Source of the DNA: Holdemania sp. Marseille-P2844 | GTDB lineage: Bacteria; Bacillota_I; Bacilli_A; Erysipelotrichales; Erysipelotrichaceae | Length of the DNA: 64,000 nt | Assembly: GCF_900120005.1 (NCBI RefSeq) | Contig: NZ_LT635449.1 | Location: 186,001-250,000 of the forward strand | Direction: 5' to 3' | Shown: piece by piece, positions 35,970-46,595 of the stretch | Numbering within the stretch: position 1 is the stretch's first letter | Layout: each line of letters begins with the position of its first letter | Program-made: the position numbers and the translations under genes | The notes under the pieces: model-generated | What the model saw: only the letters and a program-made list of their open reading frames with translations | What the model was told of the DNA's origin: nothing | Database searches by the model: none

Positions 35970-36437
35970 TTACGCCCTCGGCACCAGCGGATCCAGAATT
36001 TCATGCTGCAGATCGAACATGACCTTTTCCTCATCCGGCTGCATGTGGTCGTAGCCGAAGCAGTGCAGCAGCCCGTGCGTAAACAGGAAACAAATTTCCC
36101 GCCGCAGCGAATGGCCATATTCCTCGGCCTGACTGATCGCGGCTTCCACGTTGATAAAAATATCGCCCAGTTCGACTTCCGCTTCCTCGATCAGCTCAAA
36201 TTCATCCTGATCATCACATGCCGCAAACGAAATCACGTCCGTCGGCCGGTCGACCTGCCGGTAATCGCGGTTGATCTCATGGATTTTGCGGGACTTCACG
36301 AAAATCACTGAAATGGTATAGTCGCCCTGCTTGTTTAAGACCTCCAGCGCATGCTCGGCGATCCGCTGGAAATCCGGATAGTTTTCTTTCCATTGCTTTT
36401 CCCTTGTCTTGTTGACAAACGTACAGGTTATCATCAT
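35970..36437 (-). CDS. ybeY: Endoribonuclease YbeY
   Basis: A 155-residue zinc-dependent endoribonuclease with the diagnostic 'HGLLHCFGYDH' motif (three metal-binding His) and 'DRPTDVISFAA'. It functions in 16S rRNA 3'-end maturation and ribosome quality control. The start is ATG 36437 behind GAGG; an extra ATG follows at once at 36434. Here it is the first gene of its operon, with its own promoter. In most Firmicutes it follows phoH and pgpH; here phoH is 10 kb away. Confidence 0.95.
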   Translation of the reverse strand: MMITCTFVNKTREKQWKENYPDFQRIAEHALEVLNKQGDYTISVIFVKSRKIHEINRDYRQVDRPTDVISFAACDDQDEFELIEEAEVELGDIFINVEAAISQAEEYGHSLRREICFLFTHGLLHCFGYDHMQPDEEKVMFDLQHEILDPLVPRA

Positions 36438-36462
36438 CTTCACCTCTTGATTTTGCATTGCT

Positions 36463-36471
36463 ATTATAGCA
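36463..36471 (-). promoter_or_regulatory. Extended -10 promoter of the ybeY operon
   Basis: Minus-strand TGC-TATAAT (36471-36463), about 26 nt before ybeY. It drives ybeY-dgkA-cdd-era-recO. Confidence 0.7.
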
Positions 36472-36571
36472 TATTCTGCCTCTTTTCGACCGAAAACAAA
36501 CGGCTTTTCCCGTTTTCTTTCACAAGTTGGGAAGCGCTGAAATCGCAAGTTTGTCAGATTTTGTCTGGAAA

Positions 36572-36610
36572 TGTTAAATTTGTGTTAAAACTTCGTAATG
36601 ATTCTGTTAA
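36572..36610 (+). promoter_or_regulatory. Candidate PhoP box before the Na/Pi cotransporter
   Basis: Four hexamers exactly 11 nt apart on the coding strand: TGTTAA (36572), TGTTAA (36583), CGTAAT (36594), TGTTAA (36605); on the other strand they read TTAACA. Tandem TTAACA-like repeats with 5-nt spacers are the known PhoP-binding pattern of Bacillus. The fourth repeat overlaps a -10-like TAAAAT. The pstS upstream region has the same design. Confidence 0.75.
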
Positions 36611-36665
36611 AATAAACGTGAATCAAGAGAAGAAAAGAGAAGAAACAGGAGAGAGAGAAAAACAA

Positions 36666-38357
36666 ATGAATATCGTAGCGACGGAAATGATCACGCTGGG
36701 AGATATCTCGTGGGACATGATCCTCGGCGGATTTGCGCTGTTTTTGTTTGGCATCAAGTTTATGGGCGACGGCTTGAAAAATGTCGCAGGTCATAAGCTC
36801 CGGGAATACATCGACAAATATACGTCCAATCCAATAATGGCGGTGCTGGTCGGCATTGTCGTGACCATCGTCGTGCAGTCTTCCTCAGCCGCGACCGCGA
36901 TCACCATCGGTCTGGTCCGCGCGGGATTAATGAAGCTGGAACAGGCGGCCGGGGTCGTCGTGGGCGCCAACATCGGAACGACGATGACGGCGTTTCTGAT
37001 CGGCTTGAAGGTCGAGCAGTTCGCAATGTACTTCGTGTTCATCGGCGGCATGATCATCTCGTTTGGCAAGAAAAAGAAAACCCGCTACATCGGCGACATC
37101 ATCCTCGGCTTCGGTCTGATGTTCTATGGTCTGAAGATCATGGGCGACTCGCTGAAAATGCTGAAGGATCTGCCAGCCTTCATCGAATTTGCCAAGGTGA
37201 TGTCGGAAAAACCGCTGCTGGGCTTACTGGCCGGCACGGTGCTGACCGGACTGATCCAGGGCTCGGCCGCGACGATCGGCGTCGTCCAGAAATTATATGA
37301 ATCCGGGGCGATGACCCTGAACGCGGCGATGCCGTTTGTCTTCGGAGCCTGCATCGGTACGACCGTCACCGGCGTGTTTGCGGCGATCGGCGGCAGTCTG
37401 GCGGCGAAACGAACCGCCGGTCTGCATACGCTGTTCAACGTGATCGCGGCGACGATCGGCATGATCTTCCTGCCGTTTTACATTCAGTTCATCACCTGGA
37501 TCTCCGATCTGCTGCTGATCCCGCCAATGATGCAGATCGCCGTCGTGCATATCTTATTTAAGATCGTCGGCGTCATCGTTTATCTGCCGCTGCTGAACGT
37601 CATGTGCAATTTCATCAAGAAGCTGATTCCGGGCAACGAACCGGAGCGGATTGAAATCAACCTCGACGACATGGACGCCGGGATCGCGCATCAGATGCCG
37701 ACCGCTGCGCTGGCCATTGCCAAACAGGCCGTTCTGAAAATGAGCACAGTCGTCGATGCCGCGGTCGACAAAGCCCGCGACTTCATGAATACGCGCGGCG
37801 GTTCCGATGAGAAGGAACTCGTCAATCAGACCGAGGATCTGATCAATTCCATCGACACCAAGATCACCAATTACCTGATGAGCGTTTCCAAGGAAGACCT
37901 GAACGACCGGGATATGCAGGATTTCAACCTGCACCTGCAGGTCATCAAAAATCTGGAGCGCATCGGCGACCTGTCGGTCAACCTCGTCGAATTCTTCGAC
38001 ATGGTGCATGAAGATAAAAACGACTTCAGCGACGGTGCGAAAAAAGACGTGCTGGAAATGTTTGAGCTGTTCAAGCACATGCTGAACACGTCGATCGGAA
38101 TTTACCGCGATGAAGACTACGCGCAGTATTCCGCGTTGATGGAAGATGAGAATTACATGGATTTACTGGAATACAAAGCCCGGCAGAAACATTTCGACCG
38201 GATGGCCCGCAACGAATGCGCGACGGCTGTCGGCGGCAGCGTCTACTGCGATATTCTGGGAAACCTGGAACGTATGGCCGACCATTGCTGCAACATCGCC
38301 CGCTGTTCGATCGAAGCCTCCTCCAGCAAGGAAGCACCGGTGCTCGAGCATCACTGA
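36666..38357 (+). CDS. Na/Pi cotransporter family protein with PhoU-like tail
   Basis: A 563-residue transporter. Two inverted Na_Pi_cotrans repeats carry 'IVVQSSSAATAITIGLV' and 'LIQGSAATIGVVQ', each followed by GxxIGTT ('GANIGTTMTAFL', 'GACIGTTVTGVF'). The C-terminal 200 residues are PhoU-like helices ('NLERIGDLSVNLVEF', 'NLERMADHCCNIARC'). The family includes YqeW/NptA-type phosphate importers; direction and ion dependence are inferred. The start at 36666 (MNIVATEM) is the first ATG after AGGAGAGAGAG, with long spacing. The upstream tandem repeats suggest control by PhoP. Confidence 0.92.
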   Translation: MNIVATEMITLGDISWDMILGGFALFLFGIKFMGDGLKNVAGHKLREYIDKYTSNPIMAVLVGIVVTIVVQSSSAATAITIGLVRAGLMKLEQAAGVVVGANIGTTMTAFLIGLKVEQFAMYFVFIGGMIISFGKKKKTRYIGDIILGFGLMFYGLKIMGDSLKMLKDLPAFIEFAKVMSEKPLLGLLAGTVLTGLIQGSAATIGVVQKLYESGAMTLNAAMPFVFGACIGTTVTGVFAAIGGSLAAKRTAGLHTLFNVIAATIGMIFLPFYIQFITWISDLLLIPPMMQIAVVHILFKIVGVIVYLPLLNVMCNFIKKLIPGNEPERIEINLDDMDAGIAHQMPTAALAIAKQAVLKMSTVVDAAVDKARDFMNTRGGSDEKELVNQTEDLINSIDTKITNYLMSVSKEDLNDRDMQDFNLHLQVIKNLERIGDLSVNLVEFFDMVHEDKNDFSDGAKKDVLEMFELFKHMLNTSIGIYRDEDYAQYSALMEDENYMDLLEYKARQKHFDRMARNECATAVGGSVYCDILGNLERMADHCCNIARCSIEASSSKEAPVLEHH

Positions 38358-38495: not shown

Positions 38496-39467
38496 TTATG
38501 AATGCCGGCCAGAACGTGCCATCAGCCATCCAACTGCGGCGCAGAGTCCAAAGCCCGCCGCAATCCAGCCATACAGATGAAACAAATCGGTATACAGGAA
38601 ATTCGTGTAGTAATTCCAGGCTACCCCCTGCAGCCGGTTGATCAGGATGATCAGAACCGGAATTTCAAGCACCGCGATCAGACCGGTCATACCGCAGCTG
38701 CGCCCCAGAATATTCAGGGCGGAAGCCGCAGGCGTCTGTTTTTTCTGCCGGCGCACTTCGTGCAGCGTCAACGCCAGCGCGGCCAGGGTGCTCCCGACGG
38801 CAATCCCGAAAATCTGTCCTGACCGCTGATTCGCCAACGTATCGGAAACCGTGCTGTCCACGGCGATCGGCTGCTTGATGAATGTCATGTCCGGAAATTC
38901 CTGACGCAGCTGATAAATCAAGGCGATCCAATCCGACGGCTGTTCCGCAAAGAACCACAGCGTTGCGGTAGTCCCGGTCTGTTCCACGCTGTTGTAAAAC
39001 GGTTCGACCCGAACGTCCGCGCTTTGAATCATCGTCATGTGCGGCGCCGATAAATCCTTTCGGTCAGCCGTATAATACACCGGCCGCGCCTGGTTGAAGC
39101 TGATCTGCGGCGTTCCGGAAACCGGAAACAAATCATGCAGCGGATTTTTCATCCCGCCGTAATAAAAGCTCAGCCCGGATTCAGCGTCCGGCTTGACCTC
39201 CATTACCGCCAGCTTGCGGGCATTCAGCCGGTCTTCCTCGCTGGCTTCACTTTCCTGACCGACCGCGATCAATTCCGCGATCCGCTCGCGCTGACGCGCC
39301 TGCTGCCCCGCGGTAAACTGAACTTCGTAACAAGCCGACGCATACCCCGCTGACGCCCATTTTAAACGCGGCATTTCCGCCATCATCTGCTTTTGCGCAC
39401 TGGACTGGAACCCCTCAATCGTCGCGATCAGCGCCAACGTCAGTCCCAGCAGAAAGAGTTTTTTCAT
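38496..39467 (-). CDS. Unknown membrane protein with FtsX-like topology
   Basis: A 323-residue protein: an N-terminal membrane segment (about 3-18), a roughly 190-residue extracytoplasmic domain, then three helices near 218-237, 253-278 and 293-316. This one-plus-three layout is that of half-size FtsX/MacB permeases, but no ATPase gene is adjacent and no FtsX signature is certain. It has a strong promoter and is monocistronic. The position between the Na/Pi transporter and phoU may be incidental. Function unknown. Confidence 0.75.
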   Translation of the reverse strand: MKKLFLLGLTLALIATIEGFQSSAQKQMMAEMPRLKWASAGYASACYEVQFTAGQQARQRERIAELIAVGQESEASEEDRLNARKLAVMEVKPDAESGLSFYYGGMKNPLHDLFPVSGTPQISFNQARPVYYTADRKDLSAPHMTMIQSADVRVEPFYNSVEQTGTTATLWFFAEQPSDWIALIYQLRQEFPDMTFIKQPIAVDSTVSDTLANQRSGQIFGIAVGSTLAALALTLHEVRRQKKQTPAASALNILGRSCGMTGLIAVLEIPVLIILINRLQGVAWNYYTNFLYTDLFHLYGWIAAGFGLCAAVGWLMARSGRHS

Positions 39468-39664: not shown

Positions 39665-40306
39665 TCATCCGAAATCAATGTGCTGCCCTTTTACCTGATA
39701 GATCAGGTGCTCGCAGATATTTTTAGTATGATCGCCGGCCCGTTCAAAGTTGCGCAGCATCGCGACTAACGGCACGACATGTTCCAGCTGCATTCCCTGC
39801 ATAACGGCGGTTTCAATCTGTCCGGACAGCTCGGCAAACTGATCGTTAATCTGTTCGTCCTGCTGCGGAATCCGATACGCCTGCGCGACATCCTCCTTCT
39901 GATAGGCGTCCATCGCCGCGTCCAGCATCGCCAGAAACAACCGCCCGATCGCTTCCGCCTGTTCGCCGACAAACGGAGGTTCCGCCGGGCCTTTTTTGAT
40001 GACGTAGTCCGCGATGTTCTTAGCGTAGTCGCCGATCCGTTCCAAATCCGAAGCGATTTTAATCCCGGCGATCACTTTGCGCAGATCCGTGGCCACCGGG
40101 GAAAGCAGCGCCAGCACCGTCTGCGCCTGATCGTTGATTTCCTCCTCCAGATGATTGACGAAGTCATCCATGTAGATTAACTGCAGCGCTTTCTCCTTAT
40201 CGCCGCTTCGAAGAATGTCCAGCGCCAGCTCGTGCATCGTTTTCACCTTGCGGTACATCTGCAGGATCAAAGCCTGGAATGCGGCGAGCGATTCATCCAT
40301 TTTCAT
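39665..40306 (-). CDS. phoU: Phosphate signalling regulator PhoU
   Basis: A 213-residue protein with two PhoU three-helix repeats, each with the metal-binding signature: 'KIASDLERIGDYAKNIADY' and 'RNFERAGDHTKNICEHLIY'. PhoU links PstSCAB to PhoR and restrains the kinase when phosphate is ample. It is the last gene of pstSCAB-phoU, 19 nt after pstB, with its own AGGAGG site. Confidence 0.97.
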   Translation of the reverse strand: MKMDESLAAFQALILQMYRKVKTMHELALDILRSGDKEKALQLIYMDDFVNHLEEEINDQAQTVLALLSPVATDLRKVIAGIKIASDLERIGDYAKNIADYVIKKGPAEPPFVGEQAEAIGRLFLAMLDAAMDAYQKEDVAQAYRIPQQDEQINDQFAELSGQIETAVMQGMQLEHVVPLVAMLRNFERAGDHTKNICEHLIYQVKGQHIDFG

Positions 40307-40325: not shown

Positions 40326-41081
40326 CTAGCCGAACCGGCCGGTGATATAATCCTCAGTCCGCTGATCTGCCGGTTTGGAAAAGAGCTTGCGGGTCGTGTC
40401 GGCCTCTACGATTTCACCGAGCAGAAAGAACGCCGTATCATCGGAAACCCGGGAAGCCTGCTGCATCGAGTGCGTTACGATGACGATCGTATAGGTTGTC
40501 TTCAGCTGCTCGATCAGCTCTTCGATCTTCGCTGTCGCAATCGGATCCAGCGCAGAGGTCGGCTCATCCATCAGAATGACCTCCGGTTCCATCGCGATCG
40601 CCCGGGCGATGCACAACCGCTGCTGCTGACCGCCCGAGAGCGCCAGCGCCGAGTCGTGCAGACGGTCCTTGACCTCCTCCCACAGCGCCGCCGATTTCAG
40701 CGAGTGTTCCACAACGCCGTCCAGCACTTTCTTATCGCGGATTCCCTGACAACGGGGACCGTAAGCGATGTTGTCATAGATCGACATCGGAAACGGGTTT
40801 GGCTTCTGAAACACCATTCCGACCTCCGTGCGCAGCTGGACGACGTTGGTTTTTGAATCATAAATATTCTCGCCTAACAGGCGGATTTCACCGCTGATCC
40901 GGCAATTTTCAATCAGATCGTTCATCCGGTTCAGACACCGCAGAAACGTCGATTTGCCACACCCCGAAGGACCGATCAGCGCGGTGACCCGGTTCTTGCC
41001 GATCGTCAGATTCAGCTGTTTCAGCGCCTGTTTTTCACCATAATATAAATTCAAATCTTTTACTTCAAAACAAGTTTCCAT
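40326..41081 (-). CDS. pstB: Phosphate ABC transporter ATPase PstB
   Basis: A 251-residue PstB: Walker A '[19 protein letters not shown]' (a PstB-specific run), '[17 protein letters not shown]' Q-loop, signature '[14 protein letters not shown]', Walker B '[12 protein letters not shown]' and H-loop 'VTHSMQQA'. It energises phosphate import through PstCA. It lies 12 nt after pstA. Confidence 0.98.
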
Positions 41082-41093
41082 AACGATTCCTTT

Positions 41094-42332
41094 CTAGCGG
41101 AAGCTTTTCTGCAGCCGCCGCGAAAGCAGCTTGACCGTCAGATTCAAGATCAGCACAAAGATCAGAATGATGATTGAAATCGCGCAGGCCAGTTCAAAGT
41201 TAGGCTGCTCGCCCGACATCACCGACCAGATGTGAACGGCCAGCGAAGTACCTTGCTTCAATAAGCCCGGCTGATCGTTAATAAAGGTACCCATCGTATA
41301 GATCAGCGCCGCCGATTCGCCGACCACCCGGCCGATGCTTAACAGAATCCCGCTGAGAATACCCGGCATCGCGCAGGGCAGTGTGATCTTGAATATCGTT
41401 TGGGTCTGGCTTGCGCCTAACGACAACGACGCGTCGCGCAGACCCTGAGGCACAACCCGCAGCGCTTCTTCAGTTGAGCGGATGATCGTCGGCAAGAGGA
41501 TGATCGCCATCGTCAGCGCGCCCAGCAGAATATTCGTCGTCTTTGCCCCCATGGCCGCGGTAATCGGAAACAGCACGCTGACGCCCATTAAACCATAAAC
41601 GATCGAAGGAACGCCGGTCAGCGTTTCAATCCCGGTGCGGATCGCGGCGTTCACTTTGTTTTTTTTAGCCATTTCGCTTAAATAGACAGCGCTGGCAATG
41701 CCGATCGGCAGCGCGATCAGCAGCGATACCAGAATTAAGTACGCGGTGCTCACCAGCGATCCGCGGATGCCCCCGCCCGGCGTCTTGATAAACATCGACG
41801 TCAGCTTCGCCGCTGACTGATCCAATGTTTCCGCCACTTCAGCAGCCCTTGCGGAAGCGAGCATCCCGGTGAAGTCCGCTGTTCCGGAAGCGTCGGTAAA
41901 ATCAATTTTTTCCACCTGCAGTCCGGCGCTCATCGCGACCGGTTTCCCCTGGTTCGCCCCGGAGCTGGTATCCACAGCTGATGCCAGCGGCGAATTCTCC
42001 GCCACGGCTTCGATCAGGACAAGCTGCTTCTTTTCATGGGAAAGATGGTCGACAAAGCCCACACCCCACTTTTCGCTCCACGCCACCTCAGCACCGAGAT
42101 TTTCCGGACGCGGATAGCTCCCGGGCTGATTGCGTGTTTCATCCAGGGCCACGATCTTGCTGAGGGACCAGTAATCGCTGCGCAGCAGATCCGCGTTGAT
42201 CAAGGACAGACCATGACTGAAAATATACACGAACAGACTGGTCAGCACCACAACGGCCAGCGCTGCGCTCAGCACCGTCAGCAGCTGCAGAAAACGATCG
42301 CTGATCACACGCGGCATTCGATTGGTTTTCAC
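41094..42332 (-). CDS. pstA: Phosphate ABC permease PstA with large PDZ-like insertion
   Basis: A 412-residue permease, against about 280-300 for usual PstA. TM1 is at about 17-38. An extra extracytoplasmic region of about 130 residues follows (52-185). Then come TM2-TM6 with the EAA-type loop 'VPQGLRDASLSLGASQTQTI' and 'TGVPSIVYGLMGVSVL'. The insertion contains 'WGVGFVDH', 'LVLIEAVAENSPLASAV' and 'AGLQVEKIDF', the spacing of a PDZ fold. The ATG at 42332 overlaps pstC (ATGA). The core is clearly a functional permease. Confidence 0.93.
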   Translation of the reverse strand: MKTNRMPRVISDRFLQLLTVLSAALAVVVLTSLFVYIFSHGLSLINADLLRSDYWSLSKIVALDETRNQPGSYPRPENLGAEVAWSEKWGVGFVDHLSHEKKQLVLIEAVAENSPLASAVDTSSGANQGKPVAMSAGLQVEKIDFTDASGTADFTGMLASARAAEVAETLDQSAAKLTSMFIKTPGGGIRGSLVSTAYLILVSLLIALPIGIASAVYLSEMAKKNKVNAAIRTGIETLTGVPSIVYGLMGVSVLFPITAAMGAKTTNILLGALTMAIILLPTIIRSTEEALRVVPQGLRDASLSLGASQTQTIFKITLPCAMPGILSGILLSIGRVVGESAALIYTMGTFINDQPGLLKQGTSLAVHIWSVMSGEQPNFELACAISIIILIFVLILNLTVKLLSRRLQKSFR

Positions 42333-43270
42333 TGTCCATTCCCCACTTTCTTCTTTACCCAGTTCAGACTGAGATTCGACAAAAGGATCACGACCATCAG
42401 CAACAGACCGACGGAGAACCGGATATCGTAATCCAGTCCGGTTGTTTCCTTCAATCCCGCCAGCATCGTCGAGGTCAGCGTGCGGGTGATGTCGAACAGA
42501 TTGAACGTCGGGCCGAACAGCTTGTTGCCGGCCACCATCGCAACCGCTGTCGCTTCGCCAAACGCCCGGCCCAGTCCCAGAATCGCTCCGGCGAAAATCC
42601 CTGACTTGGCGCTGGCCAGGACAACTTTGAAATGGGTCTGCGTCGCACTCGCCCCCAAAGCCAGTGAACCCAGCTCCAGATCCGGATCGACCGCTTCGAT
42701 GGCCGTCACCGCCAGCGAGGTGATCGTCGGGAAGATCATGATCGCCAATAACAGAATCACCGCAAGCAGCGAACTGCCCCCGGCCGTACTGACCCCCGCC
42801 AGCGACGCCAGCCCTTTCACCAGCGACGTAATCACCCCTGCCGCAAAGACGCCGTAGACGACGCTGGGAATCGACGCGAGCAATTCCACCACCGTTTTCA
42901 TCAGCGGTTTAACCGGCTTGGGCGCGATCTTGACGATGAACAGCGCCGTCAGCACCGCGATGGGAAAGGCCAGCAGCAGCGCTCCAAAAGCGGAGATCAG
43001 CGTATTGATCACGATAAATCCAACGCCGTAGACGCCCTGATCCTGCCGCCACAGCGTTCCTAACAGGAAATCTTTCAGCGATACAGAGCCATAGGCATAG
43101 CCGGGTAAAAACGGCTGGATTCCTTTCATCAGAATAAACAGCGTGATCAGCACGATACAACTGCCGGAAATCAGCGCCGCCAGAAAGAAAACGGCTCTGA
43201 CCGTCCGGTCCGTTCTCTGCTTGCGCCGGGCCTGGCCGGGGCGGATTCTCGCTTTCAGATTGCTTTCCAT
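42329..43270 (-). CDS. pstC: Phosphate ABC permease PstC
   Basis: A 313-residue permease: a basic N-terminus, TM1 near 27-50, 'FPIAVLTALFIVKIAPKPVK', 'VVELLASIPSVVYGVFAAGV' and the coupling loop 'LELGSLALGASATQTHFKV'. It partners PstA in the membrane. It has an extra-long outer loop near residues 55-90, as is usual for PstC. It lies 76 nt after pstS and overlaps pstA by 4 nt. Confidence 0.97.
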   Translation of the reverse strand: MESNLKARIRPGQARRKQRTDRTVRAVFFLAALISGSCIVLITLFILMKGIQPFLPGYAYGSVSLKDFLLGTLWRQDQGVYGVGFIVINTLISAFGALLLAFPIAVLTALFIVKIAPKPVKPLMKTVVELLASIPSVVYGVFAAGVITSLVKGLASLAGVSTAGGSSLLAVILLLAIMIFPTITSLAVTAIEAVDPDLELGSLALGASATQTHFKVVLASAKSGIFAGAILGLGRAFGEATAVAMVAGNKLFGPTFNLFDITRTLTSTMLAGLKETTGLDYDIRFSVGLLLMVVILLSNLSLNWVKKKVGNGQ

Positions 43271-43346: not shown

Positions 43347-44294
43347 TTACTGAATCTGATCCCAGGACGTTACCGTGCCGGTAAAGATATCGTGAACCTG
43401 AGCCTGCGTCAGATTGGCAACGGCCGTATTCGCTTCATTGACAATCGTTACCACCGCATCAATGCAATACTGACCTGAAGCCATCGCCGATGATGTGTCT
43501 TCCTCGCCGCTTTTGAAAGCCCGCGAAGCAAAGCCGATATCCGCGCGGTTAGCACCGTCTTTTTCTGAACCGAGGACGCGCTTGTAGCCGTCGCCCGAAC
43601 CGGTCTGGTTCATCGTGAACTGGAAGTTGCCCGCCAACGGCTGGAATGCTTCCAGCGCGGCTTTCAGCGTTTTCTCCACGGATGTCGAACCGCAGGTCGC
43701 GATCGTAATCGCCGAGTTGTCTTCGTTGACGATCGGATGATTCGCCGCCAGTTCAGCCCAGGCTTTCCCCTGGCTCTTATCGACAACGCCGCCGGCCTTT
43801 TCCACCACCAGCATGCCTTCTGTGGAATTCTGCAGGAAGTCTAAGAACGCTGCGATCAGCTGTTCTTTCTCCGCACTTTCATAGTCACCGGCCGCCCGGG
43901 TTGTGAAGGCAAACGGACGCTGCATCCCGTAGGTTCCGTCCAGAACTGTCGCTTCGCTCGGCGCCACGCCTTCAAAGTTCAGCGGCTTCACGCCGTTGGC
44001 CGCAAAATCGGTGGACAGCGACACATAACCGATGCCGTTTACATCCGCTCCGACCTTGGTCGCCATATCGCCGTTGCTGGAAACTTCAATCGCGGAGGAC
44101 GTCAGCTGTTCCGCAAAATCTCCAGCTTTTTCAAACGCTTCCCGCGTACCGGAAGTCGCGTCGCGGGTATAGACGTTGATGGCTGCGGACGCTGACGGCG
44201 TAGCTGTTCCTCCCTCTGTTGGATCTGTCTTGGGTGCTGTGCTGCAGCCAGCGACAAGCAGCGCTGTCAGTACGAATACAAATAATTTCTTCAT
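43347..44294 (-). CDS. pstS: Phosphate-binding lipoprotein PstS, permuted domain order
   Basis: A 315-residue lipoprotein. The signal peptide ends in the lipobox 'LLVAGCS' (Cys19). The mature chain starts with what is normally the second half of PstS: 'INVYTRDATSGTREAFEKAG', 'GIGYVSLS', 'DGTYGMQRPFAF', 'AAFLDFLQNSTEGMLVVEKA'. It continues with the usual first half, 'ATCGSTSVEKTLKAALEAFQ', 'ADIGFASRAFKSGEE', and ends at 'HDIFTGTVTSWDQIQ'. It captures phosphate for PstCAB. The start at 44294 has AAAGGG nine bases upstream. A candidate PhoP box lies 47 nt before it. Confidence 0.94.
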   Translation of the reverse strand: MKKLFVFVLTALLVAGCSTAPKTDPTEGGTATPSASAAINVYTRDATSGTREAFEKAGDFAEQLTSSAIEVSSNGDMATKVGADVNGIGYVSLSTDFAANGVKPLNFEGVAPSEATVLDGTYGMQRPFAFTTRAAGDYESAEKEQLIAAFLDFLQNSTEGMLVVEKAGGVVDKSQGKAWAELAANHPIVNEDNSAITIATCGSTSVEKTLKAALEAFQPLAGNFQFTMNQTGSGDGYKRVLGSEKDGANRADIGFASRAFKSGEEDTSSAMASGQYCIDAVVTIVNEANTAVANLTQAQVHDIFTGTVTSWDQIQ

Positions 44295-44594: not shown

Positions 44595-45908
44595 TCAGCT
44601 TGAAGCGCCGGCGTTTGTATTCTGCGGCGAAGGTTCTGGAGGGCGTGAGGAATGTTCCGCAGGCGAAGGGTGATCCGCCGCGTCAGAACGAACCGGCAGC
44701 CGGATGACGAAGCGGCTTCCGCGGCCAACCTCGCTGTCAACCTCAATCTCGCCCTGATGCGCGCTCACGATTGCCTTGACGATCGCCAACCCCAAACCGC
44801 TGCCCCCGCTGGCTCGGGACCGGGATTTATCTACCCGGTAAAAACGCTCAAAAATCCGATCCAGATGTTTGGCGTCGATCCCGCAGCCGTCATCGCTGAC
44901 CATCAGCACCAGCCAACTGTCCTGACGCCGCGCCTGCATGCGGATATGCTCTGGCTGGCTGTGCGCCAGCGCATTGTTCAATAAATTCGCCAGCGCCTGA
45001 TGGATTTTCTGTTCATCCAGCCAGAACGTTTCGTGCGTTTGATCCTCCGCCTCCACGATCACACCCTGACTTTTTGCCTGCGGCGCAGCCTCCTTGATCA
45101 GACTGTCAAACAGTCCGCTGATCTCACAGGGCGACAGCTCCAGCGCCAGCGTGCTCATGGATAAGCGCGACAGCTTTAACAGATCGGCGACAATCATTTC
45201 CAGCCGTTTTGTTTCCTTTTCAATCTGGATATGAAAGTCCTTCATCGTCTTGGGATCATCAAAATCATCCCGGTTCAGAATTTCAATCATTCCCTTGATC
45301 GCCGCAATCGGTGTTTTCAGCTCATGCGACGCGTCGGCGATGAAGCGTTTCTGCATCCGTTCCTTTTCCATCGCCTGCGTAATATCCTGAAACACCAACA
45401 GACATCCGGTAAACCGACCGTTCTCCTGAATCGGCACGGACAGGCACTGGAAGTCGACATTGTTATAGCACAGATTGCGCACGATCGCATTCTCGCTCAA
45501 ATACGCTTCCTTCAGAAACAACTGCACCTCAGGAGCAATCCGCTCGTCGCGATACGTGAATTCTTCCTCACCCTCTTCGCTCAGAAACCGGCTGAATCCT
45601 TCATTGTATAAAATCAGATGACCATAGGAATCCATCATGGCTAAGGGGGAGGGGATATTCGTCAGGATCGTCATGATCTGCTGCTGCTTCAGCGAAGCAT
45701 CCTTGGCCGAGCTGCGAACCTGCGTTTTTAACGTCTGTTCTTTCGTCCGCATCGTTTCGCGCAATGTGTCCTGACTGTGCCACAGCAGCGCCATCGCGAC
45801 CAGTCCGAGCAAGACCAGCGCGCTCCAGGCTTCCAATAAGCCCTGGGCGCAGAACAGCGCCAGACCCGCGACGGTGACAATCAGAATTAGAGCTTCACTC
45901 GTTTTCAT
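44595..45908 (-). CDS. phoR: Phosphate sensor histidine kinase PhoR
   Basis: A 437-residue kinase: two N-terminal TM helices with almost no extracellular loop (about 5-45), a linker, a PAS domain (about 80-185), HisKA 'FIADASHELKTPIAAIKGM', and HATPase with N-box 'ANLLNNALAHS', 'VSDDGCGID', 'RFYRVDKSRSRASGGSGLGL'. The lack of an outer sensing domain fits PhoR, which reads phosphate through PstSCAB-PhoU. A Pro/Ser-rich tail of about 30 residues ends it. It lies 15 nt after phoP. Confidence 0.93.
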   Translation of the reverse strand: MKTSEALILIVTVAGLALFCAQGLLEAWSALVLLGLVAMALLWHSQDTLRETMRTKEQTLKTQVRSSAKDASLKQQQIMTILTNIPSPLAMMDSYGHLILYNEGFSRFLSEEGEEEFTYRDERIAPEVQLFLKEAYLSENAIVRNLCYNNVDFQCLSVPIQENGRFTGCLLVFQDITQAMEKERMQKRFIADASHELKTPIAAIKGMIEILNRDDFDDPKTMKDFHIQIEKETKRLEMIVADLLKLSRLSMSTLALELSPCEISGLFDSLIKEAAPQAKSQGVIVEAEDQTHETFWLDEQKIHQALANLLNNALAHSQPEHIRMQARRQDSWLVLMVSDDGCGIDAKHLDRIFERFYRVDKSRSRASGGSGLGLAIVKAIVSAHQGEIEVDSEVGRGSRFVIRLPVRSDAADHPSPAEHSSRPPEPSPQNTNAGASS

Positions 45909-45923: not shown

Positions 45924-46595
45924 TTATGCCTGGACTTCAAGTTTATAGCCGACCCCGCGCAGGGAGGCAATCTTCACACCGCTGCCCTGCAGCTTATTGC
46001 GCAGCTTGAAAATGTGGACGTCAACGATCCGGGTATCCCCGTCGTAATCAAAATCCCAGATCTCGTTGAGAATGTTATCGCGGGATAAGACGATCTGCGG
46101 ATTGCGAAGCAGATATTCCAGCAGCTCAAATTCCTTTTTCGTCAGGCTGACCGGCTGACCGTTGACCGACACTTCCCGGCTTCCCAGATCCATCGTCAGA
46201 CCACCCATTTCCAGCACCCGCCGGCTTGTCTTGACGATCCGTTTGACATGGGCCTGGATCCGCGCCAGAAGCTCGCGCGGGGAAAATGGTTTAGTGATGT
46301 AATCGTCGACGCCGGCCTCGAAGGCTTCCAGAATGTCTTCTTCCTCATCCTTCGCCGTCAGCATCATCATGACGCTGTCAATACCTTTGCCGCGGAACAG
46401 CCGCACCAGCTCAATCCCGCTGATTTCCGGCAGCATCCAGTCGATGATCATGATATCAAAGCTTTCGTTCAGCCCCTTTTCCCGGGCGCTGGCGCCGTCT
46501 GAGCAGCCGGTGACGTCAAACCCGGCGTTTTTCAAATCGTAGCTGATCAGGTGGCGGATGCTGTCCTCATCCTCAATTAAAAGAATCCGCGGCAT
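45924..46595 (-). CDS. phoP: Phosphate response regulator PhoP
   Basis: A 223-residue OmpR-family regulator: receiver with 'LLIEDEDSIRHL', phospho-Asp in 'MIIDWMLPEISG', Thr and Lys in 'MLTAKDEE' and 'DDYITKPFSPRELLARI'; a winged helix with 'LTKKEFELLEYLLRNPQ' and 'TRIVDVHIFKLRNKL'. Paired with PhoR and beside pst genes, so PhoP. Its ATG is 3 nt after the phoH stop, with GGGGG from the end of phoH as its ribosome site. It probably binds the 11-nt repeats at 36572 and 44341. Confidence 0.94.
   Translation of the reverse strand: MPRILLIEDEDSIRHLISYDLKNAGFDVTGCSDGASAREKGLNESFDIMIIDWMLPEISGIELVRLFRGKGIDSVMMMLTAKDEEEDILEAFEAGVDDYITKPFSPRELLARIQAHVKRIVKTSRRVLEMGGLTMDLGSREVSVNGQPVSLTKKEFELLEYLLRNPQIVLSRDNILNEIWDFDYDGDTRIVDVHIFKLRNKLQGSGVKIASLRGVGYKLEVQA

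Follow-up and report, generated by a model that had tools for sequence, protein, structure and literature searches.

The window, which is the whole stretch of 64,000 nucleotides that was analysed, contains a phosphate-transport operon whose binding protein, PstS, begins with the half that ends the usual protein. Can a receptor with exchanged halves still serve its transporter, and how did the exchange come about? Here, A stands for the N-terminal and B for the C-terminal half of canonical PstS, so that the usual order is A-B and that of the window protein B-A. Labels with f and g are family and genus codes of the genome sample, and family f1 includes the window.

Permuted pstS and its operon

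The pstS gene (43347..44294, minus strand, as are its parts given below) has 315 codons and a stop codon. The protein starts with a signal peptide and the lipobox LVAGC (residues 1–17, 44244..44294). With LPAM_1, the lipoprotein model of Pfam, it reaches 15.6, below the cut-off of 20, and Cys17 is invariant in the alignment of permuted proteins (15 of 15). Half B follows at residues 38–172 (43779..44183); it gives a half-profile match of 208 bits over profile positions 2–135, and contains, in this order, the hinge strand, the R-D-x-x-S-G-T-R motif, GIGYVSL and the C-terminal helix. A joiner of 23 residues (173–195, 43710..43778) leads from the old C-terminus to the old N-terminus. Half A occupies residues 196–315 (43350..43709), from the GSTSV motif to IFTGTVTSWDQIQ, and matches its half profile over positions 1–117 with 186 bits.

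The original prediction had proposed permuted halves with a breakpoint at the hinge strand, and both proposals were borne out. Residues 37–164 of the window protein correspond to the C-terminal part of canonical PstS 4gd5 and residues 191–314 to its N-terminal part (i-Evalues 7.2e-8 and 2.7e-10). The model TIGR02136 matches in two swapped stretches, with residues 185–314 falling on model positions 28–155 of 295, and so does PF12849 (72.7 bits, cut-off 27), which places the protein in a family with the PBP-like fold. A canonical relative (L024) matches TIGR02136 in a single colinear stretch. Colinearity of the window protein with canonical PstS from end to end was looked for and is absent; such colinearity was found only with 4h1x. 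The whole-protein cut-off of TIGR02136, a model of the canonical order, is missed (131.4 versus 206.6), and the window protein is therefore filed as a circularly permuted PstS and not as a canonical member. The same model gives 229.2 for the canonical L024 and 202.4 for L025, a permuted protein with a short joiner; the re-ordered A-B proteins L118 and L119, described below, score 114.2 and 121.5, also below the cut-off, so that divergence counts as well as order. Relatives in six other public records, among them Holdemania filiformis DSM 12042, H. massiliensis AP2 and Dielma fastidiosa JC13, are full-length or nearly so, 69–98% identical, and have the same B-A order, which is therefore not an assembly slip in the window. 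The window protein is thus confirmed as a circularly permuted PstS, with B first and A last.

The gene heads an intact pstSCAB-phoU operon on the minus strand. It is followed by pstC (42329..43270; TIGR02138, 209.9 bits, cut-off 196.45), an enlarged pstA encoding 412 residues (41094..42332; TIGR00974, 225.5 bits, cut-off 193.45), pstB (40326..41081; TIGR00972, 427.1 bits, cut-off 343.2) and phoU (39665..40306; TIGR02135, 180.2 bits, cut-off 130.25). The operon lies behind a PhoPR-like pair, also on the minus strand, which consists of a PhoP/PhoB-like response regulator (45924..46595; best match TIGR02154 PhoB, 207.4 bits, below the cut-off of 296.2) and a PhoR/PnpS-like histidine kinase (44595..45908; best match NF046044 PnpS, 305.5 bits, below the cut-off of 400). 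In the source genome (17 contigs, 96.6% complete), PF12849 has three matches, two of which are the halves of the window protein and the third a distant lipoprotein; besides the window gene, no pstS gene was found in a pst operon in this genome.

The surroundings contain further genes. An Na/Pi symporter whose C-terminal part resembles PhoU (36351–38357; NF037997, 207.5 bits, cut-off 50; TIGR02135, 66.2 bits) adjoins the pst operon on the opposite strand, and phoU is separated from it by a 323-residue membrane-protein-like reading frame (38496–39467, minus strand). Elsewhere in the source genome (G000, contig C15), positions 1156–2046 of locus L001 encode a second PBP_like_2 lipoprotein, of 296 residues, in which half A alone is well recognised; no pst genes were found around it in a 3.2-kb stretch.

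A protein as divergent as this one, which misses the TIGR02136 cut-off, might have changed its ligand and ceased to be a phosphate receptor. Such a change is very improbable, since the protein heads a pst operon, the only one seen in the window, and its motifs are conserved. Residues R44, S48–R51, G202, S203, S205, S233, S257, R258 and D279 are invariant in 15 of the 15 permuted proteins aligned, and we take these motif residues to be the ligand residues. Compared with canonical PstS, only the chain ends differ: they now lie at the hinge strand between the lobes, and a short linker connects the old termini. With the chain ends there, the lipid anchor would enter at the hinge, which is the visible novelty in mechanism, and, since lobes and motifs are kept, ordinary clamshell binding and delivery of phosphate are expected. 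Judged from its sequence, the window PstS most likely takes up phosphate in its cleft and passes it on to PstC and PstA in the usual way.

B-A order in 4h1x and across genomes

The B-A order of PstS is in itself not new; the new part is the re-permuted relatives. The PDB entry 4h1x, 'Phosphate-binding protein pstS 2', aligns with the profile of the window family from end to end (E 9.9e-68) in a single stretch that spans profile positions 28 to 309 and residues 4–265, i.e. 262 of its 265 residues. Among the 31 distinct PDB sequences matched by the profile, the 30 besides 4h1x have their best stretch at the place expected for the canonical order. The B-A order has therefore already been solved structurally, and the guess that it is a known variant in Firmicutes was right. 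The similar order that the original prediction ascribed to streptococcal PstS fits 4h1x, which we take to be pneumococcal PstS2, SP_2084, whereas 'pstS 1' (4exl/4lat) is canonical. The suggestion that the breakpoint allows a normal fold is supported indirectly, by the crystal structure of 4h1x with the same order, whereas AlphaFold2 reached only a mean pLDDT of 31 and a pTM of 0.23 for the window protein from a 7-row alignment that included the six public relatives. By analogy with 4h1x, the window protein would adopt the normal fold. Our search, which covered open-access but not subscription papers, found no paper describing PstS, or 4H1X, as circularly permuted. Pneumococcal Pst2 is reported to be functional in vivo (PMC4913102), and the string 'permut' is absent from the accessible part of that article.

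4h1x shares its half order and breakpoint with the window PstS but has a short joiner, and operons of this short-joiner type have an ordinary PstA. Canonical PstS proteins of the TIGR02136 type (4gd5, 4q8r) have halves, binding motifs and operon role in common with the window protein and differ in order. In operons of the long-joiner type, to which the window belongs, PstA has 390–500 codons from stop to stop, regardless of whether the accompanying PstS is B-A or one of the derived forms BABA, B2-A-B1 and restored A-B described below. PstA has 276–318 codons in other A-B operons and 280–358 in short-type B-A operons; these lengths were taken from frames wholly inside the loci, excluding those cut by locus ends. 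The window PstA measures 604 codons from stop to stop and 412 from the chosen start. Its extra region, of about 110–140 residues, precedes the conserved permease part (41793..42215, minus strand). The region is common to the relatives with long-type PstS, and Pfam found nothing in it.

Two loci depart from the length pattern of PstA. Downstream of pstC in the H. filiformis DSM 12042 record (L004), pstA is split into two overlapping frames, possibly by a frameshift in the draft. The B-A gene of L124 (G425, contig C6) is very divergent and of unsure position in the tree; behind it comes a PstA-like frame of 759 codons, perhaps a fused permease. The PstC frames of two canonical operons of f7 (L077, L078), at 425 and 444 codons, are longer than elsewhere.

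Among 245 genomes drawn evenly from the phylum, 43 had a single B-A PstS, four BABA and one B2-A-B1, and the order of all 48 was checked with half profiles. Canonical A-B proteins were found in at least 15 genomes of the draw, one of which (G281) holds both kinds, and most of the remaining genomes had a weak match or none; these counts favour B-A because the query was a B-A profile. Further, overlapping draws gave matches in 44 of 88 genomes of f3, 73 of 160 of the order of G215 and 153 of 195 of f1, and the B2-A-B1 protein as query matched 86 of 395 genomes of the class at 1e-30. Lactobacillales and Clostridia lie outside the genome sample. One large lineage, which surrounds the family of the window, is dominated by the B-A order and marked by the enlarged PstA.

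The relationships among the forms were calculated with FastTree from 137 rows, 134 units and three PDB sequences. Duplicate loci, L109–L117, the divergent or partial L001, L105–L108, L136 and L137, and the split first unit of L125 were excluded. A tree of 88 rows was obtained by leaving out 49 rows for speed or because of long branches, and three further long rows were removed when the single origin was retested.

The Holdemania-type permutation with its long joiner and the 4h1x type with its short one may have arisen independently from canonical PstS by a cut at the same hinge position, and we give this an even chance. Canonical lineages stand between the two types in free trees, the joiners differ in length (24–34 residues in the long and 12–14 in the short type among the rows listed; 17 in f12), and PstA is enlarged in company of the long type only. 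However, the branches that separate the types are weak (80/49, 89/78 and 90/87), and a single permuted clade is not rejected (AU p 0.116, or 0.15 without the three long rows). The breakpoints of both types also coincide to within a few residues, which speaks for one origin. 4h1x groups with the short type with weak support (90/48, in the tree without the three long rows). One discordance is that, when the PstC tree is rooted at its midpoint, the PstC of the two f12 genomes of the 88-row tree falls on the canonical side, which their PstS does not.

Tandem, re-cut and restored forms

Some relatives encode two or three B-A units in one reading frame. Six BABA genes are intact and in frame (L069–L072, L121 and L122), three in f3 (G198, G074 and G172) and three in f14 (G215, G391 and G393); a further one, L125 (G361, f3), is frameshifted. 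L164 (G679, f21) is a BABABA gene of 910 codons. Each tandem has one signal peptide, at its front, and is followed by pstC. Within the six intact BABA proteins, the units are 79–96% identical in protein and 85–99% in DNA, and their uninterrupted stretches of identical DNA measure 47 to 798 bases. Long open frames in G425 and G311 had made these genomes candidates for tandems, which were rejected, as each has a single B-A unit; the frame of G311 is a run-on from the upstream gene through an ambiguous codon.

A second permutation is present in G286, which has the same genus code as the BABA-bearing G198. Its gene L073 is an intact B2-A-B1 that has the lipobox LAGC at its front and is followed after eight bases by pstC. 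Compared with the B-A proteins, half B is cut between RPFMFVTR and the last helices, and a middle piece of BABA has exactly the B2-A-B1 order. In the draw of 395 genomes, the closest match of the B2-A-B1 protein is the middle of the G198 BABA (49% identity over residues 34–308). No second B2-A-B1 gene was found in any genome draw, including the 395 genomes of the class.

Three proteins of f14, L118, L119 and L120 (from G390, G389 and G371), have the order A-B, and TIGR02136 matches L118 and L119 in one colinear stretch. They could be canonical PstS acquired from elsewhere instead of reversions, as their order is canonical and canonical PstS is present in the same class. We consider this extremely unlikely, because both of their halves lie inside the permuted clade, on starred branches of 100/100 (53 rows), 100/97 (43), 95/93 (37) and 99/99 (15), and FastTree concurs. 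A B-A protein, L131, is joined to the three on a branch of only 82/75. A tree that holds all 25 A-B rows together was rejected (dlnL 202, AU p = 4e-70), where about 21 of the 202 log units are the cost of forcing a single origin of the permutation at the same time. The PstC of these operons falls within the permuted-lineage clade (46 rows, 100) and a 12-row f14 clade (99), and their PstA, at 398–414 residues, is large as in that lineage. Their C-termini also run 24–25 residues beyond half B, compared with 1–9 residues in canonical A-B proteins outside f14, except for the divergent L106 (13) and L105 (16). When 41 A-B frames were compared with a profile of 82 joiners, L118–L120 scored E 1.6e-6, 3.9e-6 and 1.1e-4, and the next frame 0.038. 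Going by this match, the tail is a scar of the B-A joiner, as reversion from a permuted ancestor would leave.

Most genomes with tandem, re-cut or restored forms are drafts, L125 is frameshifted, and in L070, L121 and L122 the BABA units are identical in DNA over stretches of 725–798 bases, a kind of repeat prone to misassembly. It is nevertheless very unlikely that these forms are artefacts of assembly or annotation. The G198 BABA lies on a single contig of 1.88 Mb and its units have diverged to 79% identity in protein and 87% in DNA, so that collapse or duplication during assembly does not explain the tandem. The three A-B proteins, each from a different genome, are in agreement. The B2-A-B1 gene comes with a signal peptide, a stop codon and an operon of its own, and misassembly makes no correctly placed lipobox.

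The units of one BABA protein pair together in the 88-row tree, in which the BABA label requires five changes, three of them forced by starred branches. The pairing is consistent with repeated or recent duplication, gene conversion, or both, and does not prove the descent of any particular A-B or B2-A-B1 gene from any particular tandem. In the 160-genome draw from the order of G215, no tandems were found in the genera of the three restored proteins.

Proposed permutation by duplication

Based on the tandems, the re-cut genes and the trees, a route can be proposed. The B-A order would have arisen through permutation by duplication, in which an in-frame tandem was trimmed in another register. 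Later in the lineage, B-A genes would have been duplicated again to BABA and BABABA, and tandems cut either to A-B, which restored the order, or to B2-A-B1. The simplest route to the restored proteins would be the loss of the first B and the last A from BABA. Taken together, we regard it as very probable that the permuted PstS is the phosphate receptor of PstSCAB and the product of permutation by duplication, a process that went on in the lineage.

Permutation by duplication has been described for DNA methyltransferases and swaposin, among others, and predicts fused tandems and truncated, functional intermediates (PMC3320104). Compared with the cases in the accessible part of that review, from which the string 'revert' is absent, PstS has a tandem, a second permutation and a reversal of order in one orthologous operon gene. 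A natural circular permutation is also known in TpMglB-2 (Tp0684), a glucose-binding protein of Treponema pallidum. Like the window PstS, it is anchored by a lipid, serves an ABC importer and has a permuted topology, and its authors reported relatives in Gram-positive bacteria (PMC4990184). It differs in having a Type I, cluster B fold and in that the first strands of its N lobe were moved. The accessible part of its article does not contain 'duplicat', i.e. tandem intermediates are not discussed there under that word. As a speculation, its authors suggest that a permuted chain is well suited to tethering (PMC4990184); the tethered PstS of the window fits this idea and is no test of it.

Profiles of the canonical order split or under-score permuted PstS, which may therefore be overlooked or annotated as truncated. 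Most circular permutations in nature are known as end products, and their route is inferred. We think it likely that the PstS lineage represents a permutation cycle that is still running, from A-B to B-A, on to chains of two or three units, and from these to new orders that include B2-A-B1 and A-B, the latter recognisable only by its scar of 24–25 residues, and that topology is evolutionarily reversible. One essential, operon-fixed receptor shows the start, the intermediates and several outcomes, including the reversal, in living relatives. With this family one can examine which cuts in the chain are tolerated by a two-lobed binding protein, and whether they alter lipid anchoring, affinity or handover.
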